IMG/VR virus record: IMGVR_UViG_3300021425_000008
Location: 62,001 to 126,000 of that record
Strand: one strand, 5' to 3'
DNA: 64,000 nt
Source: a virus
Each line of letters starts with the position of its first letter. The stretch's first letter is position 1. Below the pieces are notes generated by a model, which had not been told where the DNA came from, searched no databases, and worked only from the letters and a program-made list of their open reading frames with translations. The translations under genes were made by a program, and so were the position numbers. Shown here in pieces: positions 8,447-32,200 of this stretch.

Positions 8447-9135
8447 ATCACAGTTTACCTGATTGGTCTTGTTACATTCGTAATGAGTTCCTGTATAACC
8501 ATAAGAAGGGACATGGAGAAGTTACTAAGGCTGATGTCCATAGTGTCGCGAGTATGGAGAAACGTGTCCCTTTGTTTGAGGCGTTTTTGGAGAATGGTGT
8601 CAATTGGACACGGAGACCACTACATGCCTTCTGTTGGGACCCACAGGCCGAGATAGAACCCTTAGAGGACATCATGTACTGGGATTGCTTTAGTCCTTAT
8701 ATTGACGTACAGAGACGACATCGACTTGCTGGTCTTCAGGCACAATTGATTCGACCTGATGATAAGAAAGTATTGGGTGATTATATGTTCACCTTAGATT
8801 GGTCCTGGGAGAATAAAGGTGTACCAGACCTAAACTATTCAGAAACTCCTGAACATAAGTGTGCACACCTGTTTAAGGTTGAAACTGGTAATTATTACGC
8901 CTATCCTAATAATCGGATCATTTGGTACGATAATGCATGGACATTCAAACGTATTGATAAGAATCCTGGTTTTGAGATTGATACCACTGTCTATAGTGTA
9001 GAGAACAAGAGAAAGATGGAAACATCTGATCACTACATGTATGAGGTGACTGATCTAGAAGAACCACAAGATGATTATGATGGTTTGATTGATACTTGGA
9101 AATCACAAGAGTTTAGATACGCTGATCCGCAATAA
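8434..9135 (+). CDS. Conserved-type cyanophage hypothetical protein
   Basis: 233 aa, TTG start with AGGAGA eight bases upstream, overlapping the SET gene by 13 nt. Rich in Trp, Tyr and Asp (PDWSCYIRNEFLY, FCWDPQAEIEP, FTLDWSWENKG, RIIWYDNAWTFKR), no membrane segment. Position directly before the late structural cluster suggests a late or virion-linked role, but no family was recognised. Confidence 0.6.
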   Translation: MAYLNHSLPDWSCYIRNEFLYNHKKGHGEVTKADVHSVASMEKRVPLFEAFLENGVNWTRRPLHAFCWDPQAEIEPLEDIMYWDCFSPYIDVQRRHRLAGLQAQLIRPDDKKVLGDYMFTLDWSWENKGVPDLNYSETPEHKCAHLFKVETGNYYAYPNNRIIWYDNAWTFKRIDKNPGFEIDTTVYSVENKRKMETSDHYMYEVTDLEEPQDDYDGLIDTWKSQEFRYADPQ

Positions 9136-11815: not shown

Positions 11816-14800
11816 ATGGCAGTAGATAGAGTAAAATTCCAGGAAATTGTCACCAGTCAACTTCCAAGATATATTAGAGAAGATTTTCCTCTTCTTTCGG
11901 ATTTTTTAGAGCAATATTATATTTCCCAAGAGTCTCAAAGTGGACCTGCTGATATTATTCAAAACATTGATCAATATGTTAAGGTAGAAGAGTTATTTGA
12001 TATTGTAGATAATACGACTTTATCGTCGAATCTCAGTCTGACGGCGAAAACCATCCCTGTATCGTCAACTATTGGTTTTCCTGAAAATAATGGTATCGTT
12101 CAAATTGATAATGAGGTCATATTTTACTCTGGTGTCACTCCAACCTCATTAACTGGATGTAAAAGGGGATTTAGTGGTATCACAACCTATATCACTACAG
12201 GAAATCCTGATGAATTGACTTTTAGTCAAACTGATTCCGAAACACATAGTTCAGGTGCAGAGGTAAAGAACCTTAATGTGCTGTTTTTGAAGGAATTCTT
12301 CAAAAAACTCAAAAAACAGGTCACACCAGGCTATGACGATAGAAATTTTTACGGAGATTTAAATAAAAAGAATTTTATCTACAATGCTAAGAGTTTTTAC
12401 TCTTCAAAGGGTACCGATCAATCATTTGAAATTTTATTCAGAGCATTGTATGGTGAGGATGTCGAAATCCTGAAGCCATCAGAATTTCTTTTCACACCAT
12501 CTAATGCAAACTATAAAGTTACTAAGGATTATGTTGTTGAAAAACTTCAAGGCGATCCCTTAGACTTAAAAAATCTCACTATCTTCCAAAAGAGGACAGG
12601 GGCAAGGGGTGCAGTCACGAATGTTCAGAGAATTCCCTATGCAGACTACCAATTTTATCAAATCAGCATTGATCAAGGTTTTGATTACACCAGTGACACT
12701 GCTTCAATCTATGGTGAATTCAAACCAAATCCATTAACGAAAATTCTTGAGAGTGTCAGTATTGGTGCATCTATCATCAGTGTTGATTCTACCATAGATT
12801 TCCCTGAGTTTGGAAATTTGGCTATCAAGAACGTTGATGGTCAGGAAATGTCCATTGGATACTCTGGAAAGACTTCAAACCAGTTTTTCAATTGTGATGG
12901 GATCGGTAGAAACATCGATAAGACAGAAGATGTCAAACTTGATGACTATTCTTATGCATATGTTGGAATTAATACCGATACAGAGATTCAGGTACGTTTT
13001 ACATCGACTCTGAAAGACTTTGTTCAAAATGAGAGAACAAATTACTTCAGACCTCTTGATACTATTCAGATTAAATCTCTTGGTTATGAGGCTACAACCA
13101 AAAAGAGTAATAATTGGTTCCTCAACATCAAACCAAAGTATAGAGTTGCTGAAACCACAGTCATTGATCCTCTTGCTTTTATATACCAGTTTAAATTCTA
13201 TGATACTCACTTCTTTAGTGAAGGATATGAGTTAAGGTATGAAAATCCCGATCAAAATATCTCTTTGTTGGGAACAGTCATTAGGGTTATTTCAAAAGAT
13301 ACAGTCAATGTAAGATTTTCCGTACAAGTTCCTCTTACAGGTGAATTTTACGTTGAAAATCAACTTTTGAAGGGATCTTCAACAAGATATCCTTATATCG
13401 AAGAATTTGTTGCAAACGTTCAGAATACGTATGCCAAGTTTGATGGTGAGGTGATGGTTTCATCGAACTCAATTCCAAAATTTGATAATATTTTAACGAA
13501 TACCTACAATTGTAGTGTAACCTTTTCAACATCCCTTCAAAGCACACAGGTTATAACTCTTCCGACCAACCCAACGACTTTACCTGATCATGGGTTCCAT
13601 ACAGGTGACTCTGTTTACTTCCAGTCAGCTGGTCAAGGTTTTGAGGGTGTGTCATCAGGATCTTATTTCGTAAGAAGAATCAATGAGAGTCAGATTAGTC
13701 TCTCAAGAAGTAAGGCAGACTTATTCAAAGGAACATACCTCACTTTCAATGGTAATGTCACAAATGCATCTCTGACATTACTTGAATTCTATAAGAAAAA
13801 TATCGAACCTCAGGGTATTTACAGAGAAATACTTGAACCTACTAATAATAGAATTGATAATCAATTTACAAAATCTGGTACTACTGGTATTTGGAATAAT
13901 GGTGTTGAACTGTTAAATTATAAGTCTACGAATAGTGTCTACTATGGTGACATCATTAGCTTTAATGTTACGAGAGGTGGAGAAAATTATGACATCATTA
14001 CTCCTCCTGTTGTAAAAATAACTGATGAAACAGGTGTTGGTGCAACAGCTATTGCCAACGTAATTGGAAGTCTGGAAAGACTTGACGTTACTGACCCTGG
14101 TTTGGGTTATTATGCACCACCGACCATTACGATTAAGGGTGGTAATGGTGTAGGTGCGGCTGCAAAACCAAGAATGGTTTCTATTGTTCATGAAAATCCA
14201 TTCAATGCAAATTCAAATGAAGTAAATCTTGCCACTGACGAATTATCCTTTAAAACAGATCACAAATTACTAGATGGTGAAAGTGTCATCTATCAACCAA
14301 GAGGTACAAAAGGAATCGCTGGTCTCACAACTGATTCCGAATATTTCGTATTTGTAACTGGTCAAAAAACTCTTAAACTTCATAGAAACAGAGCTGATGC
14401 TATTGTTGGTATCAATACTGTGATTCTAACTCAGTTTGGTGATGGTGTTCAATACATTACCGCATCTAAACTGAAATCCGTTGTCTCCAGTGTCGTAATC
14501 ACTAATCCTGGAACAGGTTATGAAAATAAGAAGAGAACAATCCCATCTGTTGGTGTCAATACCGTTTCAAACAGAGTTGAGATTGTAAATCATGGTTATA
14601 AAGATAGAGAAATTGTAAGATATACAAGAGATGACTCTTTACCAAGAGTTGAGGGACTATCCGAAAATAAAGATTATTATGTCTTGAAAATTAATGATGA
14701 CGAATTTGCTCTCACTGAAGTTGGTACTGATGGTAAACCAGCATCATATTACTTTGACAGAAGAATAACAATTGATTTTACTAATGCAGGTAAAGGTTCT

Positions 14801-17800
14801 TTCAACTATCCACCTATCACCGTTGATGTTGAAGGGGCAGCAGCATCATTTGATAAAACCTTTGTTGAGGATTTCCAAGAACTTTACGTAATTGAATCTC
14901 CAATTACTGAAAATATTATCACACCAGTATCAGTTCTTGCTTGGACAGATACAGAAGCAGAGATTCATAATCCATATTATGTTCTCGTCAGTGAAGGTGC
15001 AAACTGGCTTATCAGTGATGACCCCTTCATTGGTAATATTTTTCTGTATGAAGCAAAATTACAACCAATATTCAGAGGTTCTATTCAAACCATCGATACG
15101 GTAAACGGTGGTGTTGGATACGGTGCATCAACAATTATTGACTTTAACAGACAACCAGAAGTCACTTTCCAATCAGGCGAAGGAGCACTATTGACTCCTA
15201 TCATCAACAACGGTCAGATATCAGAAGTTGTTGTTCTCTCTCCTGGTAATGGATATAATTCTCCACCAGATTTAGTTGTCAGAAGTTTAGATGGTAAGGG
15301 TGATTTTGCAATTCTTGTTCCAGTAATCTCAAATGGCCAAATTGATAGTGTAATCGTTCAAAAAGGTGGAGCTGGATATACAGCAGGTAAAACATCTGTT
15401 GATGTAATTGCAGCAGGTCAGGGTGCAAGAGTTCAAACCATGATCAGGGGTTGGAACATTAACCTGTTTGAGAAGAACTTTAACAATATCTTGGACGATG
15501 ATTGTGTATTGACGGAGAATATCGCTAATACATCTTTACAATTTGCATCCTTCTTTGCCCAGAGACCCCTTAGAGCAGCTTCTAATTCAATTAATGGATT
15601 TGAAGAGGATAATATCAAGTATGGTCTTTTTGATCTTCAATTGACCACAGGTGGTGAGGAAACATCCAGTGGATTCCACTCTCCTATTTTTGGATGGGCA
15701 TATGATGGAAATCCAATTTATGGTCCATATGCATACGATAAGATTAATGGATCTGGTAGCATTCGTCGAATGCAGAGTGGATATAAGTTGAAGAATACAC
15801 CAGTCAACAGACCATCATACACAGCATTCCGTAATGGATTCTTCGTTGATGACTACGAATTTGTTGGAGATGGTGATCTTGATGAATACAACGGTAGATT
15901 CTGTGTCACACCTGATTATCCAAATGGTGTGTATGCTTACTTCTGTACTATCAGTAATGATATTGAATCTTCTGGTCCTTTCAATAAATATAGACTTCCA
16001 CAGTTCCCATATGTTATTGGTGACAAGTTCAAGTCTTTACCGAATGCATTCAACTTCAGATCATCGTCCAATCAAACTGAATATGACATCACCAAAAATA
16101 ACTGGTTGAGAAATACCAGATACTATTTTACTAATGGTGGAAATAATGGATACGATTATATCTTTAATTCGGATCTGATAAGAAATTCATCTGTAGATAT
16201 CACTGCAACCACTAGTGGTGGTATTGATATTGTTGATATCAAAGATCCAGGTGAAAATTATAAAGTAAATGATAAAGTCATCTTTGATTCATCTCAAACT
16301 GATGGAAGAGGTGTAAATTGGAGAGTTGCTGAAATTAAGGGTAAAGATGTCACTCAGGTAAGTCTTGCAAAAACAGTATTTGAAGATTCTGAATTTGTAG
16401 GTGATGCATCTAGAAATGCTTTCACTGGAATCACTTCAGTACCTCATGATTTCTTGACGAATGATATTGTCTTTGTTGATGGTCTGTCAGAATTCTATAG
16501 GGGATTTACTGGACCATTCAGAGCGGGTGTTTCAAGTGAAAGATGGTATACATCAGTTGGTATTAAGACTGGAACAGTCACTGGTATCGTAACGTTTGTT
16601 TATCTCAGCGGTATTATTGATGAAGCTATTATTAGACCGAATGACATTCTAAGAATTGATCGTGAACAATTCAAAGTATTAAATCTTGATGTTGCATCAG
16701 GAAGAGTGAGAGTTGAGAGAGGTTATAACAGCTCACCACAAACTACTCACACAGCTGGTACTCTTGTGAGAGATGATCCCAGAAAGATTAGATTTAGTGC
16801 TCCAGGTATCTCTACATTCAAACCTTTAAATTTAAACAAGACTCATTACTTCATGCCTAATGAGTCTGTTGGTCTTGGAACTGCTACTGCAGGTACTGCA
16901 ACGACAATTACATTCTCAAATCCTGGTGTTGGTATCACACAGTTGAGACTTCAACAACAACAATTCTATTATCCAGATCACGGACTTGAATTAAATACTC
17001 CACTCAAATATTATAAGGGTGGTGGTACTTCCTTAGCAGTTTGGAGTGGTATTCAATCTTCCTCGATATTCAATCTTGATGAGACAAGAGATTTGTTTGC
17101 TGTACCTATTACTCAAGATATTATTGGTCTGGCATCGGATAGAGTTGCCTTGAGTACGGTAACCAATCAATATGTTGGTGTCGATAGTACTAAAGGTGGA
17201 TTATTATACTATACCAATTCTACCAATCTTGGACAGACACATAGTCTTGTTACTGTTCTTCCAACAGTTCTCACGGGTAGAATCTCTCAAAATGTAGTGA
17301 CAGTTTCTACTGGTGAAACTCATGGTATGAAGAGGGGTGATAGGATTTTGGTTGATGTAAATCCAACGACAACCACAACAGTTAAGGTTCTTTATGATGA
17401 TTACAATAGAAGAATAGTATTTGATAGAGATACCATTGAACCATCTGGTATCAACACAAGTAATAATTCGTTTACTGTTCCAATTAACAAGTATAGAACT
17501 GGTGATAAAGTCATTTACACTTCTGGAGATCCATCAGAGGGTCTGAATGCAAATGAAATGTATTATGTTTATGTCTACAAGGATGACGTAATCAAACTTA
17601 CAGATGAAGTTTATCAATTGTTCTCAGAAAACCCAACTTTTGTCAATGTTGGTTCTGCAACAACTGGAAGTATTGCAAGAATTAATCCAAGAATCGAAGT
17701 TCAGAAGAATCAGGATTTGAAGTTTGATTTATCCGATCCCTCATTGTCATTTGTTGATAAGACAATCACATATTCTGCATTTGAGATGCATCTTTATAGT

Positions 17801-20800
17801 GACTCTCAGAAGATTAATGAATTCTTCACAACAAAAACAAATTCAAAATTTGAAGTTACAACTTCAGGACAAATTGGTATCGATAGTACGGCAAACCTCA
17901 CTTTAAGTATAAGTAACGAACTTCCTGAGAGTCTGTATTATGGTTTTGAACCAGATAACCTAGACATCATACCACCAGTCAAGTTGAGAATATTTGAAGA
18001 TGACCAAGTATTCAAACATAACACTATTGGTGTCGTACCAAATAAGTTTGATGGTGTTTATAGTGTTGTGGGGGTAACTTCAGATACCTTTGATTATAAT
18101 ATCCCTTATGATAGTGATACTGTTACTTCTTATGGTTCAACCAATTCAACGGTTAAGTATAACACCACTTCACCAACTGCATTTGGACCTATTAATAGAG
18201 TAACTGCAGTCAATGAAGGAATTGGTTACAAAACTCTGCCTGGATTTACATCTGTAAGAAGTGCAAAAGGAACTGGTGCATTATTAGAGCCAAGAAGTAC
18301 AACAATTGGTTCGGTTCTCAAACAGAAGATAAACTATATTGGATTTGGTTTCCCATCCGACAATACTCTGAACATTGTTGCAAATCTTCCACAGGTTCTC
18401 AGAGTAGAACCACTTGGTAAATTCGAACAGATCGGTATTTCTTCGGGTGGTGTTAATTATAGTCAACCTCCACAATTGGTTGTTCTTGACGGTTTAACAG
18501 GATTACAAATTACTGACCTTGATCTGAGATTTGACTTTGATCAGACCTTTGTAGATATTGTTCAGAATACACAATCTCTGAATGATGTTATACCAGAGAT
18601 TATTCCCGTTCAAAACACTAATGGTTTCAGTATTAGTTCAATCACTTACAACAATACCTCAAAAGTTGTACGTTTGACTTTCTCTCATCAATTCAGTGAT
18701 CCTGAAGATTGGCCATTTAAGGTTGGTGAAGAATTCCTCGTAGAAAACGTTGCAATTGGTTTTGGAACTGTAGGTAAAGGTTACAACTCTGAAGATTATG
18801 GATATAAACTCTTCAAGGTGACTTCATTAGATAGTCAACTCGGAGGAAGTGGTGCATTTATTGAATATAGTCTTTCAGACGTTCTTGGTACAGGCGAAGT
18901 TCCTGGAGCAGTTGTAAGTACTGTATCTGGTACTGTAACTCCTAGAGTATACTTCCCGATCTTTGATCCTGTCATTAAAACTTCACCTCTGTTGACTGGA
19001 GAAAGGGTCACAAATGAAGGAAGAACTGGTATTGTTGAAAGATTTGATGAGGTAAGTAGATATCTCTTCGTTTCTGCTGAAGATGACTTTGTGGTTGGAA
19101 CAGATGTGGTCTCTGAAACATCTGGTGTAAGAGCAACAATTTTAGACACAACTGTGTTTGATTCAACGATCAAACTTGGTGTTGGTGCAACATTTATTGA
19201 TGGTTGGCAAACAAACTCTGGTTTCTTGAACGATAATCTTCAGGTGATTCCTAATAATGAATATTATCAAAACTTCTCATACTCTCTTAAATCGAGAGTT
19301 GCTTTAGACACATGGGATGATGCTGTAAGTTCTCTGAACCACACTGCAGGTTTTGAAAAATTTGCTGACTTGGTTATTGATAATAATGCACCTGGTATCG
19401 TAACAGCAGCAGACATTGAGATTTCAACTGTTGTCGATCTCATTGGTGAGGGAATGCTCAACTGTTTCCCTGACTTTGATGGTGCAACTGAAAGAACTTT
19501 GGATATTTCGAATGGAAGAACTATCTCCAATGAGATTGTATTTGAAACAAAAGTTCTTGTTGACTACTTCGAGTCAAGAGGAAATAGAGTTCTTAAAATC
19601 GATGACTTTAGTGATGAGTTTGATAGTGATCCAAGAGATACACCTTTCTCAATCATCAGTTTCTTTGATAACAAGTATGCATGGAATAAGTTCTTTACTC
19701 TTATTCAAGATACTGAAATTAGAAATAGAAAACAGTTTGGTATTGTCACCCTCCTTCAAAATGGTTCAGATGGTTTCTTGAATCAATACGGTACAGTTGA
19801 TACAGGTAAAGCACTTGGTTCATTTGAACATATCAGTATTGGTACAAGTCAGTTTGGTCTCGCATGGTACCCAAATCTCTTCGAATACAACAACTATGAA
19901 GTATCTTACTTCAACTTTGCTGGTGTAGAAAGTCTGACAGGAATTGGATCAACTGCAATCGGTAGTATGGTTTCAATAGCTTCATCTTCTGTCGCTGTTG
20001 GTGTTGGTACTACAACCACATTATTAGAACTTCCAACTGCAACTAGATCTGCAAAAGTTCACATTCAAATGGAAGATGGTAATGACAACTACTTCTATAA
20101 TGAACTGAACGTCCTTCATGATGGTACAAATGTACAACTCCTTCAATATGGCGATATTGATACTACCACCGATCCATCTTCAGGGTTTGGAACTTACACT
20201 GCAAACATAAGTGGTAGTAATATCGAGATTGACATTCATCCTACCGTAGGAACTGCTGTAACGGCAAACATCTTGTCAGTCGAGGTACATGGTACAAACA
20301 CTGGTGTTGACACCACTGGAATGATCGTGACTAACCTTTCATCATACCATACAAGTATCTCTTCATCTGGTACACCTACTGCCAATGAGATTGCATCTTT
20401 CAATAATCCATTTGCTGCAGAGTACTTCATGGTAACTGTCCATGATACTACGAATGATGAGTATGAAATGTTTGAGTGTCATGTCTTGGACTCCACTAGT
20501 AATCAAAATATTACTAAGTACGGTAGAATTGACACTATCTCTGGTGTAGGACTTGGTACCGTTGGTATGACCAAGACTGGAAGTTCGATTAGTTTGAACT
20601 TCACTCCAAATGCAAACATCGCTGTTGATGTGAAGACATTTGGTATTGGTCTAAAGAACTATAACAATATTACGGGTATCACTTCAATCAGTGACCTTCA
20701 AAATAATATTCTCTTCTCTAACCATGGTACTTACACAGGTACCCAGTTCGATACAAGAAGAGCATTTAACCTGAAGCACAATGATCTTCCAATCTTCCAG

Positions 20801-23800
20801 AGAGCATTCCTTGGAAATAATTCAAGTATTGTAGATCTTACAAATAATTTGATCACCGTTCCTGATCACTTCTTTGTCACTGGCGAAAAACTCATTTACA
20901 GCTATGAGAATTCATTATATGAGTCCACTAATGCAATAGGAATTGTCACACAATCAATCGCAGGTGTTTCCACTGACAAACTTCCAACAGAAGTCTATGC
21001 AGTTAAAGTAAGTGAAACTCAGGTCGGTCTTGCTACTAATGCAGCTGCAGCACTTAAAGGCACTCCTGACACCATTGATCTTTTGACTCTTGGTATTGGA
21101 ACATTCCACAAGTTGACATCAACCAATCAAAATGCAAGAGCATTGTTGGCTATCGATAATATGATTCAGGCTCCAGTCACTGAGGTTGTAGTCTCAACAA
21201 CTCTGAATGAGGAAATTATATTCGATGTTGACTTTGAAGTCACTGGAATCACATCATTCAAAGCAAATGATCTGATTAAGATTGACGATGAGATCATGTT
21301 GATTCAGAACGTTGGTGTGACTGCAGCAAATAGTTTCAAGGTTCTGAGAGCACAGATGGGTACTGGTGTTGGTACTCATGCAAACGGTACCACGGTTCAG
21401 AAACTTGGCGGTAACTACAATATTATTGATAACACTGTTCACTTTGCTTCTGCACCTTACGGAAATATTCCAATCGGAACAGATACTGCAGGTCCTGATA
21501 ATGTAGATTGGTCAGGTATCACCACTCATTCTACATTCCAAGGTAGAACATTCATGAGAAGTGGTATTGAAGATGAAACTACAAGTACTTATAGTACCAA
21601 CTTCACTTTTGATAACATTCAAAAGGATTTCAATGGTCAGAAGAAGGTATTCTCACTTCGTCAGAATGGAAGTAATATTACTGGATTTGCAACTAACCAA
21701 GCAATCATTCTGAACTCTAACATTCTTCAAGAACCACAGGGTGCTCAGGCAACTACTGGTGACTTTACTCTAAGTGAAACTGCTGGTGTTACGAGTATTA
21801 CTTATCTTGGTGAAAGTAGTTCTTCTGAGGATGATCCTAACAGAGCAACTCTTCCAAGAGGTGGCACTATTATCTCGGTTGCATCAACACCAGGTTTTGG
21901 TTTCCAACCTCTGATCTCTGCTGGTGCTTCATGTTTCGTCTCTGGTGGTGGTACAATCACTTCAATCGAAATTGGTAATCCTGGATCTGGATACAGAGTT
22001 GGTGTTCAGACAGTTCAGGTTGGTATCATTACAACTAACGTTGGTTTTGCAACTGTTGTCAACATTGGTACTGCAACCGTTCAAAACGGTGAGGTCGTAG
22101 CAATTACGACATCTTTCTTCGGATCAAATCTTGATCAGAATAATCCACCACAAGTTGTAATTGATGCACCTCTTCCGTATCAAGGTATTCCACTTGTATA
22201 TGCAGATGGAACGACTGGTATAGGTACTGGTGCTAGGGTTGATGTCAAGGTTGGTCAAGGTTCAAGTGTAATTAATTTTGAACTTGTAAGTGGTGGTCTT
22301 GGTTATGGTGAGAGTGAAGTACTCAGACTTGCCATTGGTGGTACTACAGGTATTCAAACAACCTCAAGTGCATCATTTGAACACTTTGAACTTACCGTAT
22401 CTGATGTTTATCGTGATACCTTCAACGGATTCACAATTGGCGAACTCGACGTATTTGATAGACTTGATCCTCTGTTTGATGGGGTCAGAAAGACATTCCC
22501 ACTTGAAATTGCAGGAAACTTATATGCAATTGAAACTGCTAAAGGTTCAAACATTGACATTGCACAGTGTCTGATTATCACCATCAATGACATTCTTCAG
22601 GTTCCTAATGTAGCATATAAGTTCAATGGTGGTAGTATTATTGAATTTACAGAACCACCTAAGAAAGGTGATGTATCTAAGATTATCTTCTACAAAGGCA
22701 CTCCAGATATTGACGTTGTTCTGGTTGATATTCTCGAAACCATCAAGATTGGTGATACCTTACAACTGAAGAATGATTCTGGAAAGGGTCAGACATTGGC
22801 ATTGTTCCAGGAGGAAAGAATTGTCACAGGTATCACAACCCTGGATACTGTCACAACTTTTGCTTATGATGGTCCTGGTATTACGACAAATCAGTCTCTG
22901 GTAAGACCAGTAACATGGTGTAAGCAGATTGACGACATTGTTATTAATGGTTCCTTTGTTACAAAGGATAGGGTTGAGTTTGAGCCATCGATCTATCCTT
23001 ACGGATACATCACTCAATATATTGGTGTGAATACTACTGACGCATATGTCGATAGTGTAAGACCATTCTTCAATTCAACAAATGAAACGGCACTTCTTGA
23101 TTATAACGATAGAGTAACGATCATCGACCAGACACCTATCGTTGGTGCATTAGCAACAGTTTCTGTCAGTACCGCTGGAACTGTCACTGGTTTTACAATC
23201 AGCAATGTTGGTTCTGGTTATTCTGGTTCAGCTGCTGTTTCTATCTCACAACCATTTGACATTGTGGGTGGTACAAGAGCAACTGCAACAGCCAACATCT
23301 CTGGTGGTGGTGTGACATCATTCACAATCACTAATGCTGGTGCTGGTTATTCAGCTGCTTATCCTCCACAAGTTCTAGTTGAAGTCCCTGAAGCAAGAAA
23401 AGAAACTGTTGGTGTCAATTCTTACTTCGGAGATCAAGGTATCATTGTTGGTTATGCTCAATCTGCTGGTGCTTTGGGAATCCTTGAACTGTATCTTCCA
23501 TATGATTCGTTCATGAGAGATACCACCATTGTAGGAACAGCTCTTACAGTCAGTACACTCAGAACTGGTGATCTGTTTGTTGTCAATCTTTCCAACTTCG
23601 GATTATCGACGAATACTAGTGATGGTATCTATCGTGCACATTATGTTTATGACCATACGGTTGATTTGACATCTGTTGGTATCGGAACAACCGTAGTCAA
23701 GAGAGTTGAAATTGAAAATGTTGGATTTGGTGTTACTGCAGTTGGAACATTTACAAGAGGTAAGGATCTGGGTGAATACACCTGGGGTAGAGTTCAATTT

Positions 23801-23917
23801 AAGAATAGAGTTGCTGCTAAAGCTCTCACATTTACACCAAATGGATATGCTGGATTGACCACATCTCCAATCATACAGAGGACCAGACCTCTGAAGTTCA
23901 ACAACTATCTAGTTTAA
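11816..23917 (+). CDS. Giant modular baseplate protein in the gp7 position (YHYH domain)
   Basis: 4033 aa, nearly four times T4 gp7 (about 1030 aa), located where gp7 sits between gp6 and gp8. The N-terminus (QEIVTSQLPRYIREDFPLLS then FLEQYYISQES) is a putative wedge-docking region. A YHYH-type domain occupies about residues 1285-1380 (FGWAYDGNPIYGPYAYD; YNGRFCVTPDYPNGVYAYF). The remainder is built from repeated beta-rich modules described in the findings: GxGYxxPP, DHGxxTGDxVxY, ID.E...H..GT, and a tandem pair at about 2746-2825 and 2866-2946. No transmembrane segments. Assignment to gp7 rests on position, not on sequence I can align by eye. Confidence 0.7.
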   Translation: MAVDRVKFQEIVTSQLPRYIREDFPLLSDFLEQYYISQESQSGPADIIQNIDQYVKVEELFDIVDNTTLSSNLSLTAKTIPVSSTIGFPENNGIVQIDNEVIFYSGVTPTSLTGCKRGFSGITTYITTGNPDELTFSQTDSETHSSGAEVKNLNVLFLKEFFKKLKKQVTPGYDDRNFYGDLNKKNFIYNAKSFYSSKGTDQSFEILFRALYGEDVEILKPSEFLFTPSNANYKVTKDYVVEKLQGDPLDLKNLTIFQKRTGARGAVTNVQRIPYADYQFYQISIDQGFDYTSDTASIYGEFKPNPLTKILESVSIGASIISVDSTIDFPEFGNLAIKNVDGQEMSIGYSGKTSNQFFNCDGIGRNIDKTEDVKLDDYSYAYVGINTDTEIQVRFTSTLKDFVQNERTNYFRPLDTIQIKSLGYEATTKKSNNWFLNIKPKYRVAETTVIDPLAFIYQFKFYDTHFFSEGYELRYENPDQNISLLGTVIRVISKDTVNVRFSVQVPLTGEFYVENQLLKGSSTRYPYIEEFVANVQNTYAKFDGEVMVSSNSIPKFDNILTNTYNCSVTFSTSLQSTQVITLPTNPTTLPDHGFHTGDSVYFQSAGQGFEGVSSGSYFVRRINESQISLSRSKADLFKGTYLTFNGNVTNASLTLLEFYKKNIEPQGIYREILEPTNNRIDNQFTKSGTTGIWNNGVELLNYKSTNSVYYGDIISFNVTRGGENYDIITPPVVKITDETGVGATAIANVIGSLERLDVTDPGLGYYAPPTITIKGGNGVGAAAKPRMVSIVHENPFNANSNEVNLATDELSFKTDHKLLDGESVIYQPRGTKGIAGLTTDSEYFVFVTGQKTLKLHRNRADAIVGINTVILTQFGDGVQYITASKLKSVVSSVVITNPGTGYENKKRTIPSVGVNTVSNRVEIVNHGYKDREIVRYTRDDSLPRVEGLSENKDYYVLKINDDEFALTEVGTDGKPASYYFDRRITIDFTNAGKGSFNYPPITVDVEGAAASFDKTFVEDFQELYVIESPITENIITPVSVLAWTDTEAEIHNPYYVLVSEGANWLISDDPFIGNIFLYEAKLQPIFRGSIQTIDTVNGGVGYGASTIIDFNRQPEVTFQSGEGALLTPIINNGQISEVVVLSPGNGYNSPPDLVVRSLDGKGDFAILVPVISNGQIDSVIVQKGGAGYTAGKTSVDVIAAGQGARVQTMIRGWNINLFEKNFNNILDDDCVLTENIANTSLQFASFFAQRPLRAASNSINGFEEDNIKYGLFDLQLTTGGEETSSGFHSPIFGWAYDGNPIYGPYAYDKINGSGSIRRMQSGYKLKNTPVNRPSYTAFRNGFFVDDYEFVGDGDLDEYNGRFCVTPDYPNGVYAYFCTISNDIESSGPFNKYRLPQFPYVIGDKFKSLPNAFNFRSSSNQTEYDITKNNWLRNTRYYFTNGGNNGYDYIFNSDLIRNSSVDITATTSGGIDIVDIKDPGENYKVNDKVIFDSSQTDGRGVNWRVAEIKGKDVTQVSLAKTVFEDSEFVGDASRNAFTGITSVPHDFLTNDIVFVDGLSEFYRGFTGPFRAGVSSERWYTSVGIKTGTVTGIVTFVYLSGIIDEAIIRPNDILRIDREQFKVLNLDVASGRVRVERGYNSSPQTTHTAGTLVRDDPRKIRFSAPGISTFKPLNLNKTHYFMPNESVGLGTATAGTATTITFSNPGVGITQLRLQQQQFYYPDHGLELNTPLKYYKGGGTSLAVWSGIQSSSIFNLDETRDLFAVPITQDIIGLASDRVALSTVTNQYVGVDSTKGGLLYYTNSTNLGQTHSLVTVLPTVLTGRISQNVVTVSTGETHGMKRGDRILVDVNPTTTTTVKVLYDDYNRRIVFDRDTIEPSGINTSNNSFTVPINKYRTGDKVIYTSGDPSEGLNANEMYYVYVYKDDVIKLTDEVYQLFSENPTFVNVGSATTGSIARINPRIEVQKNQDLKFDLSDPSLSFVDKTITYSAFEMHLYSDSQKINEFFTTKTNSKFEVTTSGQIGIDSTANLTLSISNELPESLYYGFEPDNLDIIPPVKLRIFEDDQVFKHNTIGVVPNKFDGVYSVVGVTSDTFDYNIPYDSDTVTSYGSTNSTVKYNTTSPTAFGPINRVTAVNEGIGYKTLPGFTSVRSAKGTGALLEPRSTTIGSVLKQKINYIGFGFPSDNTLNIVANLPQVLRVEPLGKFEQIGISSGGVNYSQPPQLVVLDGLTGLQITDLDLRFDFDQTFVDIVQNTQSLNDVIPEIIPVQNTNGFSISSITYNNTSKVVRLTFSHQFSDPEDWPFKVGEEFLVENVAIGFGTVGKGYNSEDYGYKLFKVTSLDSQLGGSGAFIEYSLSDVLGTGEVPGAVVSTVSGTVTPRVYFPIFDPVIKTSPLLTGERVTNEGRTGIVERFDEVSRYLFVSAEDDFVVGTDVVSETSGVRATILDTTVFDSTIKLGVGATFIDGWQTNSGFLNDNLQVIPNNEYYQNFSYSLKSRVALDTWDDAVSSLNHTAGFEKFADLVIDNNAPGIVTAADIEISTVVDLIGEGMLNCFPDFDGATERTLDISNGRTISNEIVFETKVLVDYFESRGNRVLKIDDFSDEFDSDPRDTPFSIISFFDNKYAWNKFFTLIQDTEIRNRKQFGIVTLLQNGSDGFLNQYGTVDTGKALGSFEHISIGTSQFGLAWYPNLFEYNNYEVSYFNFAGVESLTGIGSTAIGSMVSIASSSVAVGVGTTTTLLELPTATRSAKVHIQMEDGNDNYFYNELNVLHDGTNVQLLQYGDIDTTTDPSSGFGTYTANISGSNIEIDIHPTVGTAVTANILSVEVHGTNTGVDTTGMIVTNLSSYHTSISSSGTPTANEIASFNNPFAAEYFMVTVHDTTNDEYEMFECHVLDSTSNQNITKYGRIDTISGVGLGTVGMTKTGSSISLNFTPNANIAVDVKTFGIGLKNYNNITGITSISDLQNNILFSNHGTYTGTQFDTRRAFNLKHNDLPIFQRAFLGNNSSIVDLTNNLITVPDHFFVTGEKLIYSYENSLYESTNAIGIVTQSIAGVSTDKLPTEVYAVKVSETQVGLATNAAAALKGTPDTIDLLTLGIGTFHKLTSTNQNARALLAIDNMIQAPVTEVVVSTTLNEEIIFDVDFEVTGITSFKANDLIKIDDEIMLIQNVGVTAANSFKVLRAQMGTGVGTHANGTTVQKLGGNYNIIDNTVHFASAPYGNIPIGTDTAGPDNVDWSGITTHSTFQGRTFMRSGIEDETTSTYSTNFTFDNIQKDFNGQKKVFSLRQNGSNITGFATNQAIILNSNILQEPQGAQATTGDFTLSETAGVTSITYLGESSSSEDDPNRATLPRGGTIISVASTPGFGFQPLISAGASCFVSGGGTITSIEIGNPGSGYRVGVQTVQVGIITTNVGFATVVNIGTATVQNGEVVAITTSFFGSNLDQNNPPQVVIDAPLPYQGIPLVYADGTTGIGTGARVDVKVGQGSSVINFELVSGGLGYGESEVLRLAIGGTTGIQTTSSASFEHFELTVSDVYRDTFNGFTIGELDVFDRLDPLFDGVRKTFPLEIAGNLYAIETAKGSNIDIAQCLIITINDILQVPNVAYKFNGGSIIEFTEPPKKGDVSKIIFYKGTPDIDVVLVDILETIKIGDTLQLKNDSGKGQTLALFQEERIVTGITTLDTVTTFAYDGPGITTNQSLVRPVTWCKQIDDIVINGSFVTKDRVEFEPSIYPYGYITQYIGVNTTDAYVDSVRPFFNSTNETALLDYNDRVTIIDQTPIVGALATVSVSTAGTVTGFTISNVGSGYSGSAAVSISQPFDIVGGTRATATANISGGGVTSFTITNAGAGYSAAYPPQVLVEVPEARKETVGVNSYFGDQGIIVGYAQSAGALGILELYLPYDSFMRDTTIVGTALTVSTLRTGDLFVVNLSNFGLSTNTSDGIYRAHYVYDHTVDLTSVGIGTTVVKRVEIENVGFGVTAVGTFTRGKDLGEYTWGRVQFKNRVAAKALTFTPNGYAGLTTSPIIQRTRPLKFNNYLV

Positions 23918-23925
23918 AATAAATA
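23918..23925 (+). promoter_or_regulatory. Late promoter box AATAAATA
   Basis: Begins directly after the giant gene, 27 nt before the ATG at 23952. Confidence 0.65.
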
Positions 23926-23951
23926 AAACATAGAAAAGGATCCTACAGTAG

Positions 23952-24617
23952 ATGGCATACCAAGGTATTAATACTGGCACAACGCCAAATGATGGTACTG
24001 GTGACACTCTAGTTGCTGGTGGTGTAAAAATCAACAGCAACTTCACTGAGATTTATAATCTCCTTGGTAATGGAACCACTTTATCTGTTGGAGTTGTATC
24101 TGCAATAACCGCAGGAACAAATGTTTCGTTAAACACAACAACTGGTAATGTAACGGTATCTGTACCAACTCCAGTTTCTATTGCAACCACAGACGTTGAC
24201 ATTTCGAGAAACCTCAAGGTTGCTGGGATTACGACCTTAGGAGTTGTCACTGGAGCTACATATTATGGTAATGCATCTTATATCACACATTCTAAGTGGG
24301 ATCTTGGTGCAGATGGATCCACACACTATCTCTTTACGGGTCCGGCTGGATTAAGTTCTACAGCAGATCCAGTCATCTACTTGGCAAGAGGTCAGAATTA
24401 CGAATTTGTCAATAATATGGGTGCCCATCCATTTGAAATTCGTTCATCAAATGGTGGATCCGCATTCTCAACAGGTGTTACAAATAATGCAGTGTCTAAC
24501 GGAACTCTGAGATTTGAAGTTCCATTCAGTGCACCAAACTCGCTGTACTATCAATGTACAACTCACGCTGGTATGGGTGGAACGATTGTTATCTATCCGA
24601 ACTTGTTCACGGTCTAA
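23952..24617 (+). CDS. Tail protein with a cupredoxin-like C-terminal domain
   Basis: 221 aa. Residues 1-100 (YQGINTGTTPNDGTGDTLVA then GGVKINSNFTEIYNLLGNGT) resemble the N-terminal attachment and shaft regions of marine phage fibre-like proteins. Residues about 112-217 resemble a plastocyanin-type fold: FVNNMGAHPFEIRS, then LYYQCTTHAGMGGTIVIYP. His159, Cys202, His205 and Met208 match the four type-1 copper ligands (H...C-x2-H-x2-M). It sits between the giant baseplate protein and gp8 under its own late box, so it is a virion component rather than a soluble electron carrier. Copper binding is inferred. Confidence 0.65.
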   Translation: MAYQGINTGTTPNDGTGDTLVAGGVKINSNFTEIYNLLGNGTTLSVGVVSAITAGTNVSLNTTTGNVTVSVPTPVSIATTDVDISRNLKVAGITTLGVVTGATYYGNASYITHSKWDLGADGSTHYLFTGPAGLSSTADPVIYLARGQNYEFVNNMGAHPFEIRSSNGGSAFSTGVTNNAVSNGTLRFEVPFSAPNSLYYQCTTHAGMGGTIVIYPNLFTV

Positions 24618-24624
24618 ATTAACG

Positions 24625-24632
24625 TCTAAATA
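24625..24632 (+). promoter_or_regulatory. Late promoter variant TCTAAATA
   Basis: Located 21 nt before the gp8 ATG. Confidence 0.6.
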
Positions 24633-24652
24633 AGAAAAAAGTCCTCTAACAA

Positions 24653-26212
24653 ATGGCTGCGATAATTACTGATCAACTGCGTATCTTGAATGCGAAAAAT
24701 TTTGTAGATTCTGTACAAGATTCTTCTAATTCGTATTATGCATGGATTGGTCTTCCAGATGCTCCTGAGTTTCAGAGTGATTGGAATACTGCTCCTCCTG
24801 CACCAAAGGATAGTTTAGATGATTCCAATTATTATTGGGATACTATGTTGGCCCTTAAAAAGATCAACAGTGGTGATGTAAGTCAGGTTGTAAGAAAGAT
24901 TTCTTGGCAGTCAGGTACCACATACGACATGTGGAGAAATGATATTGACAGAGATAATCCTTCTCAACCATCTGGAGCATTTGATATCTATGACTCCAAC
25001 TTCTATGTAATGAATAGTGAGTATAAAGTTTATATTTGTCTCTTCAATAACGCAAATCCAGAGAATAGTTTTAGAGGTGGTCCTTCTCTCGATGAACCTA
25101 ATTTCACTGACTTAGAACCAAGACAAGCTGGAAGTAGTGGTGATGGTTATATTTGGAAATATCTTTATACTATCAAACCAAATCAAATTATTAAGTTTGA
25201 TTCTACGAATTATATTGCCGTTCCAACTGACTGGGACACTAATGCATCTTACCAATCAGTTAGAGAAAATGCAGGTACAAGTGGTCAGTTAAAAATCGTC
25301 ACGATCAGAAATCGTGGTGTTGGTATTGGAACAGCTAATGTAACTTACACAAGAGTTCCTATTCTTGGTGATGGTAGAGGTGCTGAAGCAACTGTTGTTA
25401 TCAACAATGACTCCAAAGTACAGTCTGTCACTGTATCAAGAGGTGGTGAAGGATATTCATTCGGTACACTAGATCTTGAAAGGGGTGGTGTTCCTACAGG
25501 AACAATTACTCCAGTATTTGATGTAATCATTCCTCCTAGTGGTGGTCATGGTGCTGACATTTATCGTGAGTTGGGTGCATATAATGTTCTCTCTTATGCA
25601 AGATTTGAAAATGATACTCAGAACCCAGATTTCATCACTGGTAACCAGTTTGCACAAGTTGGTATTGTTAAGAATCCAAAGGCTTACAATTCAACCACTA
25701 ATTTGACACTTGACAAAGCCAGTGCAGTATATGCACTGAAATTGGTTGGTACTGGATATAGTCAAGCAAAATTCACAGCAGATACTTTTGTTACTCAGAC
25801 TGTTGGTCTTGGTTCAACTGCTGTTGGTAGAGTTGTTTCATACGATCAACAAACTGGCATCTTAAAGTATTGGCAGGACAGAAGAACTGCTGGTTTCAAT
25901 ACTGATGGTACAAAACTTACCACACCTCAGTATGGATTCGGACAATTAAAGTTCACCGCCGATCCTGTAAGTGGTGGTAGCGTAGACATTATTCCTACAT
26001 CTGGAAATACTCTTCAAATTGACGGTGCTTTTACGGGTGTCTCAACGGTAATAAATAATCGTACCTACTACTTGGGTCAGGACTTCACTAAAGGAGTCTC
26101 TAATCCAGAGTCTGATAAGTACTCTGGTGACATCATTTATGTTGACAACAGACCTTCAGTTACTAGATCAGCTTCACAGAAAGAAGACGTTAAAGTTATC
26201 TTGCAATTTTAA
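24653..26212 (+). CDS. 8: Baseplate wedge subunit gp8
   Basis: 519 aa, longer than T4 gp8 (334 aa). The N-terminal domain carries the family pattern: ITDQLRILNAKNFVDSVQDS, YYAWIGLP, SDWNTAPPAP, YYWDTMLALKK, and YKVYICLFNN with GYIWKYLYTI. In T4, gp8 dimers connect gp7 and gp10 in the wedge. The extra length lies in the C-terminal part, which contains GEGY-type modules (about residues 215-290) shared with its neighbours. It is followed after 5 nt by the DUF4815 gene. Confidence 0.85.
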   Translation: MAAIITDQLRILNAKNFVDSVQDSSNSYYAWIGLPDAPEFQSDWNTAPPAPKDSLDDSNYYWDTMLALKKINSGDVSQVVRKISWQSGTTYDMWRNDIDRDNPSQPSGAFDIYDSNFYVMNSEYKVYICLFNNANPENSFRGGPSLDEPNFTDLEPRQAGSSGDGYIWKYLYTIKPNQIIKFDSTNYIAVPTDWDTNASYQSVRENAGTSGQLKIVTIRNRGVGIGTANVTYTRVPILGDGRGAEATVVINNDSKVQSVTVSRGGEGYSFGTLDLERGGVPTGTITPVFDVIIPPSGGHGADIYRELGAYNVLSYARFENDTQNPDFITGNQFAQVGIVKNPKAYNSTTNLTLDKASAVYALKLVGTGYSQAKFTADTFVTQTVGLGSTAVGRVVSYDQQTGILKYWQDRRTAGFNTDGTKLTTPQYGFGQLKFTADPVSGGSVDIIPTSGNTLQIDGAFTGVSTVINNRTYYLGQDFTKGVSNPESDKYSGDIIYVDNRPSVTRSASQKEDVKVILQF

Positions 26213-26217
26213 GAGAT

Positions 26218-29200
26218 ATGCCACAGGAAACTAATCTCAATGTCGCTCCGTATTTTGACGACTTTGATCCGCAGTCGAATTATTACAAGGTTTTATTTAA
26301 GCCTGGTTTCCCAGTTCAAGCAAGAGAACTGACTGGTCTGCAGTCTATTCTGCAAAATCAAGTTGAACAAATGGGCAACCATTTCTTCAAAGAAGGTGCG
26401 AAGGTAATTCCTGGTGATCTGACTTACATTAAAGATTATTATGGTATTCAAATTGAACCAGAATTCTTAGGTATTCCTGTTGGTATCTACCTGGATCAAA
26501 TTCTTAATACAACAATTACTGGTGCTACTTCTGGTGTCACCGCAAAAGTCGTAAAATATATTACAAACGAAGAATCGGAAAGAGGTGTATATACTCTTTA
26601 TTTGAACTATGAAAACTCCGCAACTTCTGACGAAGAGGTTAGCACTTTCTTAAGTGGAGAAATTTTATTAACAAGTAAGATTATTACATATGCATCAACC
26701 TTTATCTCAGCAGGTGAAGGTTTTGCAACTTCTATCCCATCAAATGCACCTATCATTGGTTCGTCATTCAACATTTCTGATGGTGTATATTTCTTAAGAG
26801 GGCATTTTGTCAATGTAAGTGCTGAGACTCTTATTCTTGATCAGTATAGTAATACTCCTTCCTACAGGGTTGGTTTGGATGTTATTGAAGAAATCGTATC
26901 TTCAGATATTGATCCAAATCTTGCAGATAATGCTCAAGGTTTCAATAATTTCACTGCTCCTGGTGCAGATAGATTAAAAATTGGTACATATCTCGCCAAG
27001 AAAGCACTAGACAATTTTGAAGATGCGAATTTTGTCCAATTGTCCGAAGTTAAGGACGGTATACTTAGACTTGTAAATACAAATACTGACTACAATTTTA
27101 TTGGTGATGAGTTTGCAAGAAGAACTTTCGATGAGTCAGGACATTATTATGTAAGGGCATTCAGAACAACTGTTAGAAATAGTCTAAACGATAACGAAGG
27201 AAACAGAGGTATATTTGAAGAGGGCCAAACCACTGATTATGGTCAAACACCAAATGACAACCTAGGTATCTATAAGGTAAGTCCTGGTAAAGCATATGTT
27301 AAAGGATATGAGGTAGAGACAATTGCCCCTACACTGATTGACTTCTTCAAACCAAGAACAAAGAAGACTAATAAAAATCAGGCTGTAAACTTTGGTTTTG
27401 GACCAACTCTGACATTGAATAGAGTTTATGGTTCTGCGACTATTGGTATTAATACAGACGGATCATTAAGTTTAAGAAGCGAAAGAGTAGGTTCTGATCA
27501 ACTGGTAGCAGCAGGAAAAGAAATTGGTGTTGCTAGAGTATATGACTTTGCTCTTGAGTCTGGTTCTTATGACTCAAGTATTCCCAACATCAATCAATGG
27601 GACCTCTCATTGTTTGACATTCAAACATATTCTGATATTTCAGTAAATGAACCTGTCACACTTACAACATCGACTCACATCAAAGGTGAGTCGAGTGGTG
27701 CTACAGGATTCCTGAAGTACAATGTATCTGCAGGAACGGCACTAACTGCTTATGGTGTCAATGGAAACTTCCACAGAGGTGAGAGACTTCTGTTCAATGG
27801 AGTTTTGGATGATGCAAGATTCGTAACAGATGATACTAATTATTCATTATCGGATGTAAAATCGGTCCATGGTATTGTAGGTACTGCAAATACATTTACT
27901 GGAGACCTTGTTCAAGATTCTGTTCGTAATTTTGGTTCTGCAAATGTTGCTGCAGCAAGTGGTTCTCAGTCAAAAGTCTCTATCCCTGCCGATGCTGGAT
28001 TTACTTTTGTTGGAATTGTTACCGTAGGCAATCTTGTCAGTTATTCAAGAGATTCACTCGACATCCAAAGTTTTGGTAGAGTTGTTAGTGTTGCAACAAC
28101 TAATTTTGACATTGAGGCTGTTCAAACCGTAAATGGCGTATGTAATGGTGCTCTTCCAACATCATCCGAAACTGTTCAGAACTTGAAATTAATTTCAACT
28201 AAAGTTTCTGGTGGACCTGGGTCTGGTAATATTGCTAGTAATGAAGCATTATACAGTACATTACCTAAACTCAATATCAGTGATGTAAGTCTTGTAGGTT
28301 CTGATATTACAATCAGAAGACAATATACTACTAATATTTCAAATAATTCTACTGCCGCAATCAATGCAGGAGATAATGAAGTATTCTTACCATTTGACGA
28401 AGAAAGATATACTCTTATCAGATCGGACGGTACGACTGAAATTTTAACAGAGGATAAGATCTCTCTGACAAATGGATCAACAACTTTGACTATCAATGGT
28501 CTAGGTACAAATGATAGTGGTTCACGATTGATTACTACTCTCAGAAAGACTAACCTTAAATCAAAAGTTAAAACAAGAAGTATCGCTAAAGATCTTGTTA
28601 TTAGTAAGTCTAAAGATTCTGCATCTGGTATTGGCTCTACAACCTTAAATGATGGTCTTGTATATGGAGACTATCCATATGGAACTAGAGTTCAGGATGA
28701 AGTAATTTCACTAAACATACCAGATGTATATAAGATCTATGGTATTTTTGAATCTGAAGATAACAGTGATCCAGTTGCTCCTAATATGACTTTAGGACAA
28801 CTTGATGGTGAAACTTCGACCACTAATGATCTGATTATAGGCGAAACTTTAATCGGTCAGACAAGTGGTGCAAAAGGTATATTATTATCGAAAATTGATG
28901 ATACACAGGTTGTTTTTACATACTTAAACAGCACAAGCTTTTCTAACAATGAAGTTATTAAATTCAAAACTTCAAATGTAAATGGTGTTTCGTCTGGTGT
29001 TAAGGCTGGTTCTAAGGAAATAACTGCCGACTTTAAATTTGATAATGGTCAAAGACAATCAATCTATGATTACTCTCGTATATTGAGAAAGTCTGAGGTA
29101 CCAGTACCTGCAAGAAAAATCAGAGTTTATTTTGCATCTGCAGGATATCAAGACTCTGATGATGGTGACATCACCACAATCAATTCTTACGAAGGATTCG

Positions 29201-32200
29201 ATTATACTAAGGATATTGGTGTGATCGGAAATTCTAGAGTCTCTGATATTATTGATGCAAGACCAAGAGTCACCGAATATTCAATCTCCGAAGGGGCAAA
29301 CTCTCCATTCGAATTCAGTGGTAGAACTTTTGAAGATGGTCAAAATGGTAGAACACACAGTTCATCCCACATCTTGGCATCTGATGAATCTATGACTCTT
29401 GATTATTCCTATTTCTTAGGAAGAATCGATAGATTATACGTAGATACCACTGGTCGAATTGGTGTAGCTCAAGGTGCACCTGACGATAATCCAAAGGCAC
29501 CTGATCCAATTAGCAATTGTATGAATATTGCTACGGTGTATCTCCCAGCATATCTTTATAATACTTCTGACGCTCAAGTATCATTTATTGATCATAAGAG
29601 ATATCAGATGAGTGATATCGCTAAACTTGAGCAAAGAATTGCAAGTCTTGAATATTATACATCACTGAGTTTAATGGAGACTCAGACTCTCAACCTGTTT
29701 GTCAGTGATGCTAATGGACTTAATAGATTTAAGTCTGGAATATTTGTAGATAACTTCTCTACCCTTGCACCTCAAGATACAACAATTGGTATCAGAAATG
29801 CCATTGATAGAAAAAATGGTATCTTGAGACCAGCTCACTATACCACTGCACTAAATCTTCAACTTGCTACTAATGCAATCAGTGGTGTTGGAACAACCTC
29901 CAATACAAGTCAAGATGCTGAATTTGCAGATCCTGTAGGTGTTAACGTAAGAAGAACTGGTCAAATGGTAACACTTGACTATTCTGATGTTGAGTGGTTG
30001 AATCAACCATTTGCAACAAGAGTTGAGAACGTCACACCATACCTGGTTCAATTCTGGCAAGGAAACATTGAATTGATCCCAGATGTTGATGTCTGGATTG
30101 ACACCACTCTGTTGGAAGTCAATAGTGTCATGATGGAAGGTTCTTTCCAAGGTATTGTAGAAGCACTTGGTGCAGAAATCACTACAAATGCAGATGGTCA
30201 GAGTGTAGGTGTTACTCCAATTATTTGGAACTCCTGGGAAACGACTGGTGTCAACTTGGATATATCCTTGGATAACCAAGTCAATCAGAGTACATCAACA
30301 TCCCAGAACACAGTTTCTTCAAACGCTTCTACCAACTTTGGTGATGGTGGTAGTGCCAGTGTTGGTATTGATATTGCCCAAACAACCACAACGACAACTA
30401 CAACAAATAATATTACTGCAACATCATCAATCTCCCTTAATCAACAACAAACTGGTGTTCAACATACAATTACTGAGAATATTGATACTGAATCACTTGG
30501 TACTAACGTGATTAATACTGAGATCATCAACTTTATGAGATCTCGTAATATTAATTTTGATGGAAGATCATTCAAACCATTTACTAGACTATATTCATTC
30601 TTTGATTCTGTCGATGTTACAAAATTCTGTACTCCAAAACTAATTGAAATTGAAATGCAGCATGGTACGTTTACCATCGGAGAGACTGTAGTTGGTACAA
30701 TGAACAATGGTGGTTCAGTGGCAAATAATACTGATTCCATTCCAGAAATTACATTTAGAGTTGCCAATTCAAATCATAAGTTTGGTCCCTTCTCTGCACC
30801 TGAAGACATTTACATCACTAACCCATACAATCGTGACCTTACTATTCCTGCAAATTATTCGGAATCATCAACAATCCTCAATGTAGACCTCTTTAGTCTA
30901 CAGTCTCAGGATACACCAGAATTCTATGGCTGGATTGAAACTGACATGATCTTAACGGGTCAAACCAGTGGTGCTCAGGCAAGGGTTACAAATAGAAGAA
31001 TTACATCTGATAGAGTTGGTACTATTCAGGGTTCGTTCTGTGTTCCACCTACTGGCAATTCTGCAAATCCAACATTTGAAGCTGGAACATCTTCATTCAG
31101 ACTTACAAACAGTAGCACGAATAGCTCAATCGAAGGTGTAACAACCACCGCTGGTGACGCACTTTTCTATTCACAAGGTACTCTTCAAACTACTCAAGAG
31201 ACCACGTTGTCTCTTAAGAATGCATCAGTCGTCACACAAGACTTTGTTCAGTTCCAGACTATTAGAGACACTGCAACATCTAATACTATTCAAGTTATCT
31301 CTACAGATACGAATACTCAAATTACAGATGTTGACCTTGATATTGACGTTGAGGCTCCTGATCCCCCAGAACCAATCGTTATTGTTGAACCAGCACCAGC
31401 TCCACCTGCTGGTGGTGGAAATGGTGGTGGTGACCCACTGGCTCAAACATTCACAGTTGATGATAAGACAGGTATCTTTGTCACGAAGGTTGACTTCTAC
31501 TTTAGAACAAAGGGCGAAAGTGCTCCTGTAATATTCCACATCAGAGAAACAACACTTGGTACACCAAATGCTAGAGTTCTTCCTTTCTCTGAAGTATCAC
31601 TTGATCCAGACAAGATCAACCTCAGTGAAGACGGTACAGTAGCAACGACTTTCCAATTCCCATCACCAGTCTATCTTGAGGGAGAGACTGAATATGCGAT
31701 GGTCTTGATGTCTCACTCAACAGACTATACCGTCTATATTAGTAGACTTGGTGAAGCAGACATCACTACATTAGGTGGTGGTGAGTCTGATCAGGTTATT
31801 GTATCAGAACAGCCTCTCCTTGGTTCGTTGTTCAAGTCACAAAACGCTTCTGTTTGGACACCAAGTCAATATGAAGACCTTAAGTTCAAACTCTATAGAG
31901 CTAATTTCAAACAATCTGGTAGTGTTTCTTTCTTCAACCCAAGATTGCCAGATTCTCTTGGTGTAGTCGATACAAATGGACTTTCACTTGAGCCAAGACA
32001 AATTAGAGTCGGACTTGGTACAACTGTCAATGATGCCAGTGTACCTGAAAGACTAACACTTGGTAATACCGTCAAACAGTTAAGTATTGGAGCACAAGGT
32101 ACTCTTGTTGCTTTAGCTGGTTCTGCAACAGGTGATCTTTCACTTACAAACGTTGGTGCTGGATATACACCTTCATCTGGTGGATTTACTTACACTGGTG

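Follow-up and report, generated by a model that had tools for sequence, protein, structure and literature searches.

The gene and its place in the baseplate cluster

A short gene among the structural genes of a virus raises the question of why a phage tail protein should end in a His-Cys-His-Met set resembling the ligands of a type-1 copper site, and what such a site would do on a virion. To answer it, we analysed a window of 64,000 nucleotides, which corresponds to positions 62001–126000 of a 141-kb viral record. The gene, its neighbours and its parts are as follows, in window coordinates.

11816..23917, + strand: upstream neighbour, a 4033-aa giant baseplate wedge/virion structural protein (PHROG 2885, 3240 bits)
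23918..23925, + strand: late-promoter-like element AATAAATA, fitting NATAAATA; its end lies 27 nt upstream of the ATG
23952..24617, + strand: gp9-type baseplate wedge/tail-fibre connector protein of 221 aa with a predicted C-terminal cupredoxin domain (intact ORF; PHROG 677)
23961..24146, + strand: T4 gp9/gp10 N-terminal domain (aa 4–65), the putative baseplate anchor (PF07880, E 4.2e-9)
24240..24278, + strand: single shaft repeat GVVTGATYYGNAS (aa 97–109); longer homologues carry related repeats
24282..24602, + strand: predicted cupredoxin-fold domain (aa ~111–217; AlphaFold2, VIA, profile against PDB)
24653..26212, + strand: downstream neighbour, a gp8-like baseplate wedge subunit of 519 aa (PHROG 438, E 3e-155)

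The N-terminus, which a preliminary description made from the sequence alone had taken for that of a generic fibre, matched PF07880 (T4_gp9_10_N) over aa 4–65 with 37.1 bits against a cut-off of 25, and the T4 structures of gp10 (2fl8, E 1.5e-7) and gp9 (1pdp, E 5.6e-4). Over residues 52–216 the protein aligned with the C-terminal region of PHROG 677 (E 2.7e-56), a family described as 'baseplate wedge tail fiber protein connector'. The proposed fusion thus stands, but it joins the C-terminal domain to the baseplate-anchoring domain of T4 gp9/gp10 and not to a generic fibre. Since this is the sole PF07880 match in the 141-kb record, the 221-aa protein is best named the gp9-type protein of the phage. 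The suggested location inside the baseplate operon was borne out by the baseplate genes on both sides, and a place in the baseplate cluster near gp8 is the one expected for the T4 gp9/gp10 family. The homologues of P-RSM4 (gp9) and Syn9 (gp102) are likewise preceded by a giant structural gene and followed by gp8, with one extra gene intervening. The protein shares its N-terminal domain and its baseplate-cluster position with T4 gp9 and gp10 (baseplate wedge; long-tail-fibre socket/tail pin), whereas the T4 matches end by query residue 85 (aa 4–85) and the C-terminal cupredoxin has no T4 match.

The late promoter named in the same description agrees with the published cyanomyovirus late consensus, NATAAATA (PMC2984593). 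ATAAATA itself was not over-represented in the window (15 observed, 13.0 expected); all 15 copies, at 9132–54806, lie on the + strand, and nine of them are placed 23–38 nt upstream of the start of a + strand ORF. The elements at 9132–54806 may outline the late operons of the phage.

A truncated or frameshifted ORF was ruled out as an artefact, because a similar 215-aa short form occurs in contigs L003–L006, L020 and L026 and because the window equals the related contig L009 minus an in-frame shaft stretch of 858 nt.

The C-terminal domain is predicted to fold as a cupredoxin

An AlphaFold2 model built with 32 aligned sequences reached a pLDDT of about 85–97 over aa 111–210 and 79 over aa 211–220, compared with 46–65 in the N-terminal half. 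The top VIA-align match of the domain was the N-terminal part of the three-domain NirK 2dv6 (Z 11.2, rmsd 2.4 Å, 94 aa), and 50 of the 50 matches listed were cupredoxin proteins, among them NirK, two-domain laccases and rusticyanin (Z 9.3–11.2). The best PDB matches in Foldseek were nitrite reductase and rusticyanin (E 2.5e-5), and none of the PDB matches listed by VIA and Foldseek had a non-cupredoxin fold. The structure prediction thus supports the cupredoxin fold. When a profile of the ligand-bearing domains was compared with the PDB, 33 of the 34 matches at E<1 were cupredoxin proteins (NirK, plastocyanin, amicyanin, pseudoazurin, azurin and auracyanin; best E 0.0037). These matches are individually weak, and it is their agreement that is evidence at the sequence level for a cupredoxin relation. 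PF00127 was sub-threshold against the window sequence alone (E 0.13, 13.1 bits against a cut-off of 21.2), for which PDB hits were weak as well, and was found in 10 of 15 family members (best 9.9e-5). As modelled, the C-terminal domain has a cupredoxin fold, that is, a Greek-key beta-sandwich. His159 is predicted to lie in the loop after strand 149–154, and Cys202, His205 and Met208 between strands 197–202 and 209–215; this predicted placement, in a His loop and between the final two strands, is that of cupredoxins. It bears indirectly on the outcome that would have refuted the preliminary description, a fold holding the four residues apart, and does not point to such a fold.

Four candidate metal ligands are under joint constraint

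The four residues were found where they had been described, in the intact 221-aa ORF.

24426..24428, + strand: codon of His159, predicted metal ligand in an HPF motif, invariant in 59 of 59 ligand-bearing representatives
24555..24557, + strand: codon of Cys202, predicted metal ligand and only Cys of the protein, invariant in the ligand-bearing representatives
24564..24566, + strand: codon of His205, predicted metal ligand, invariant in the ligand-bearing representatives
24573..24575, + strand: codon of Met208, predicted axial ligand, also retained in the ligand-losing clade

Constraint was assessed on 59 ligand-bearing relatives that are pairwise less than 80% identical, and the four ligands were the only columns that were 100% invariant among them. 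The spacing C-x2-H-x2-M was found in all 54 representatives with a readable HPF...C-x2-H...M motif. Exactly one Cys is present in the domain in 58 of the 59, so that it has no disulphide partner within the domain, and a conserved intradomain disulphide was ruled out as the explanation of the Cys. Loci retrieved with ligand-bearing search patterns were left out of the count of ligand states because of search bias. The 64 relatives found by ligand-free patterns comprised 54 with all four ligands and 10 with F-A-T/V-M, and none was intermediate.

These 10 relatives represent a single paralogue of about 784 aa, of which a copy (L002) also resides in the genome of the window:

record around 29985–30281; L002 967–3297: second domain of this phage with a predicted cupredoxin fold, part of a fibre-like protein (at least 777 aa) and reading FPF...QASNTAGM

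In this clade the H, C and H are lost together and the M is kept. The paralogue is monophyletic (support 100/99), and since its members form one clade, the loss of ligands was one evolutionary event and not many. Its model (pLDDT 90.8; Z 10.7 to 2dv6) predicts that the cupredoxin fold is retained despite the loss of H, C and H. The persistence of this ligand-less paralogue in the same phage means that not every copy depends on metal. The C-terminal part of the L002 fibre-like protein is rich in HNHN, HSHN and HKH motifs, reminiscent of iron-binding fibre tips.

Judged from these alignments, the predicted site is more than chance and its four residues are under strong constraint. Their conservation and joint loss are as expected of a metal site and difficult to account for in another way, and the ligand set points to copper as the likely metal.

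The loop is of the amicyanin/NirK class

The C-x2-H-x2-M loop belongs to the class of amicyanin and NirK, whose loops in the structural alignments read CTPHPFM, CTLHPWM and CSIHPYM. The cupredoxin domains of these proteins (2dv6, 6hbe, 9cck) share with the phage domain the H...C-x2-H-x2-M order, the short loop and the fold; they differ in that identity is about 17% and in that they are periplasmic electron-transfer or enzyme domains, whereas the present domain terminates a protein of the phage baseplate. Plastocyanin and the phage tail domain both fall in the cupredoxin superfamily, with the PF00127 match of the latter sub-threshold, but the plastocyanin loop is C-x2-H-x4-M. In addition, plastocyanin is a separate soluble exported protein, while this domain is fused to PF07880. 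Of the plastocyanin-like ligand set that had been proposed, the His-Cys-His-Met order is correct, and a specific link to plastocyanin is not supported. A plastocyanin query hit 401 phage records at one place each, and the matches listed were annotated as plastocyanin or petE, that is, as separate petE genes only. Syn9 encodes both kinds of loop in separate genes: gp102, annotated 'T4 gp10-like', ends with HPF...CTLHSLM, and PetE (gp117), a protein of 107 aa encoded apart from it, has CGPHKGAGM and an N-terminus resembling a signal peptide. Capture of petE by a tail gene was ruled out, because the two loops are of different classes and PetE is encoded by a gene of its own.

Other additions to virion proteins offer partial parallels. 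Many virion proteins bear immunoglobulin-like domains as small added beta-sandwich modules; the present domain is alike in being such an appendage, but the immunoglobulin-like domains of phages belong to another fold class and have no metal site. The T4 gp37 tail-fibre tip is an iron-binding HxH structure. For Alteromonas phage R22Y, too, there is an iron-binding HxH tail-fibre tip, with the metal proposed or known (PMC11705849). Metal at a fibre tip would be common to these phages and the present one, but the gp37 and R22Y sites are His-only iron sites and not cupredoxins with a thiolate ligand.

The domain recurs in cyanophages and in unrelated protein contexts

By tblastn, the protein or parts of it were detected in 356 phage records, nearly all of cyanophages, some with the N-terminal part only, and two overlapping sets of at least 566 and at least 430 relatives were retrieved in searches of viral contigs. 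Of 169 distinct proteins, 113 carry the domain no more than 15 aa from their C-terminal end, and a large share have a gp9/gp10-type start; a tail protein of P-SSM2 contains the module twice. No such domain was found in two regions of S-PM2, including the positional equivalent S-PM2p085. Virion proteomes exist for S-SM1, Syn9, S-PM2 and S-TIM4, according to two published papers whose main texts do not name this protein (PMC3037559, PMC6224464).

The module was also present outside baseplate proteins. A cupredoxin domain with HPF...CSIHSSM is inserted in a subtilase-like protein of 803 aa (L088 3578–5986), whose gene is close to one of the phage capsid type, and a collagen-like surface protein of Bacteroidetes (L089 1948–4968) carries a ligand-complete module. 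A narrow domain-only motif scan of 84,980 species genomes gave two loci, a phage contig inside a MAG and this same collagen-like protein. Structure matches in BFVD were viral proteins labelled peptidase S8, S74, YHYH, Ig-like and ConA-lectin. Fainter BFVD matches were small 'beta-sandwich' proteins of giant viruses (Pithovirus and Marseillevirus metagenomic genomes). The plant At5g54830-like domain (PF25489), a possible eukaryotic relative, matched four alignment members weakly (best E 0.0049).

The tip is exchanged and the shaft varies in length

Comparison with closely related contigs located a junction in the shaft and an exchanged stretch.

24234..24245, + strand: shortened-shaft junction relative to L009, with a 12-nt overlap and 858 nt of L009 absent (blastn)
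24242..24626, + strand: exchange cassette of shaft repeat and putative cupredoxin tip (blastn against L037 and L031; only a 38-nt repeat aligns inside)

The flanking DNA of L031 and L037 is 93–96% identical to the window up to 24241, and homology resumes at 24627, ten bases past the stop codon (blastn); both breakpoints are sharp. At the protein level, identity of L031 and L037 to the window is 96–98% in the N-terminal 95 aa and 91–98% in gp8, compared with 54–55% in the tip. These conserved flanks around a divergent tip indicate that tips are exchanged between otherwise similar phages. In L009, the tip is 99% identical to that of the window and the shaft is longer: window 22000–24245 corresponds to L009 161–2406 and window 24234–27500 to L009 3265–6531 (blastn), and the 858-nt difference is in frame. 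From this comparison, anchor and tip are kept, and the length of the shaft is free to vary. A cassette pattern of this kind would be usual for attachment parts, and the exchange fits attachment of a fibre as well as recognition of a host.

Proposed role and alternative explanations

Our results suggest that the protein is probably the gp9-type fibre connector of a marine cyanomyovirus with a metal-stabilised, exchangeable cupredoxin tip that serves attachment of a fibre or of the host. The N-terminal T4 gp9/gp10 domain would dock on the baseplate wedge, and the apo-domain would fold within a trimeric tip during assembly. The metal, most likely copper, would be taken up in the virion or on release, after lysis. 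It would hold the loop of His159 and that of Cys202, His205 and Met208 together and so give a stiff head, to which the next fibre or the host surface could attach, and the tip would pass between phages as a cassette. Metal binding, copper as the metal, the trimer, a structural rather than a redox role and the attachment function are what we infer, and the trimer and the shaft can be no more than inferred since model confidence is low in the N-terminal half.

The main functional rival is that the domain with its metal site is itself the receptor-binding tip, and that the metal or the surface near the exposed His contacts a host ligand. Its C-terminal position in many tail proteins, the exchange of the cassette in a conserved background and the recurrence of the module in viral proteins annotated as tail fibre, peptidase S74, YHYH, Ig-like or ConA-lectin would all suit such a tip. 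However, T4 gp9 is a connector rather than a receptor-binding protein, and the metal in a type-1 site is mostly buried with its coordination filled, so that an open coordination position is not expected; we regard a receptor role as unlikely. A third function, electron exchange at the host surface by a redox-active domain, for instance as the trigger of a baseplate change, would draw on the complete H-C-H-M set and on a fold used for electron transfer. No redox partner was seen and the context offers no evidence for such a role. The module occurs in unrelated structural contexts, among them the collagen-like protein of Bacteroidetes and subtilase-like proteins; this speaks for a general function in structure or binding and makes the redox function very improbable.

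The main sceptical reading is that the domain is metal-free and that the four residues either are conserved because of packing or are left over from a cupredoxin ancestor. In its favour, the paralogue that lacks the ligands is predicted to fold just as well. Packing leaves unexplained, however, that invariance is confined to the four ligand columns, that the lone free Cys never drifts singly to Ser or Ala, and that three ligands vanish together whenever they are lost. We consider it improbable, more so than a receptor role, that no metal is bound. The metal-stabilised connector is the explanation that we favour, and the ligand-less paralogue within the same genome is a natural control against which a real metal site can be judged.

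Significance

The cupredoxin fold, the ligand set and gp9 are each already known. The domain was unnamed in every annotation that we encountered for its carriers, and in hundreds of marine viral contigs and many cyanophage records the proteins that bear it were annotated only as 'baseplate wedge tail fiber connector'. A literature search confined to open-licence papers, itself weak evidence of absence, returned nothing relevant that joined a cupredoxin with a phage virion or tail. If loaded with metal, this would be, to our knowledge, the first cupredoxin known as part of a virion.

It is possible, and we put it forward tentatively, that type-1 copper sites sit on the exchangeable tail-tip domains of a large, so far unrecognised class of marine phages, whose virions would then be copper proteins that depend on copper in seawater for attachment or stability. 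Copper is both scarce and toxic in the surface ocean. The recurring domain predicts that phage tails may carry bound metal and provides a mobile tip module with a ligand-less natural control in the same genome; if the domain is metal-loaded, attachment or stability of the phage would be tied to copper.
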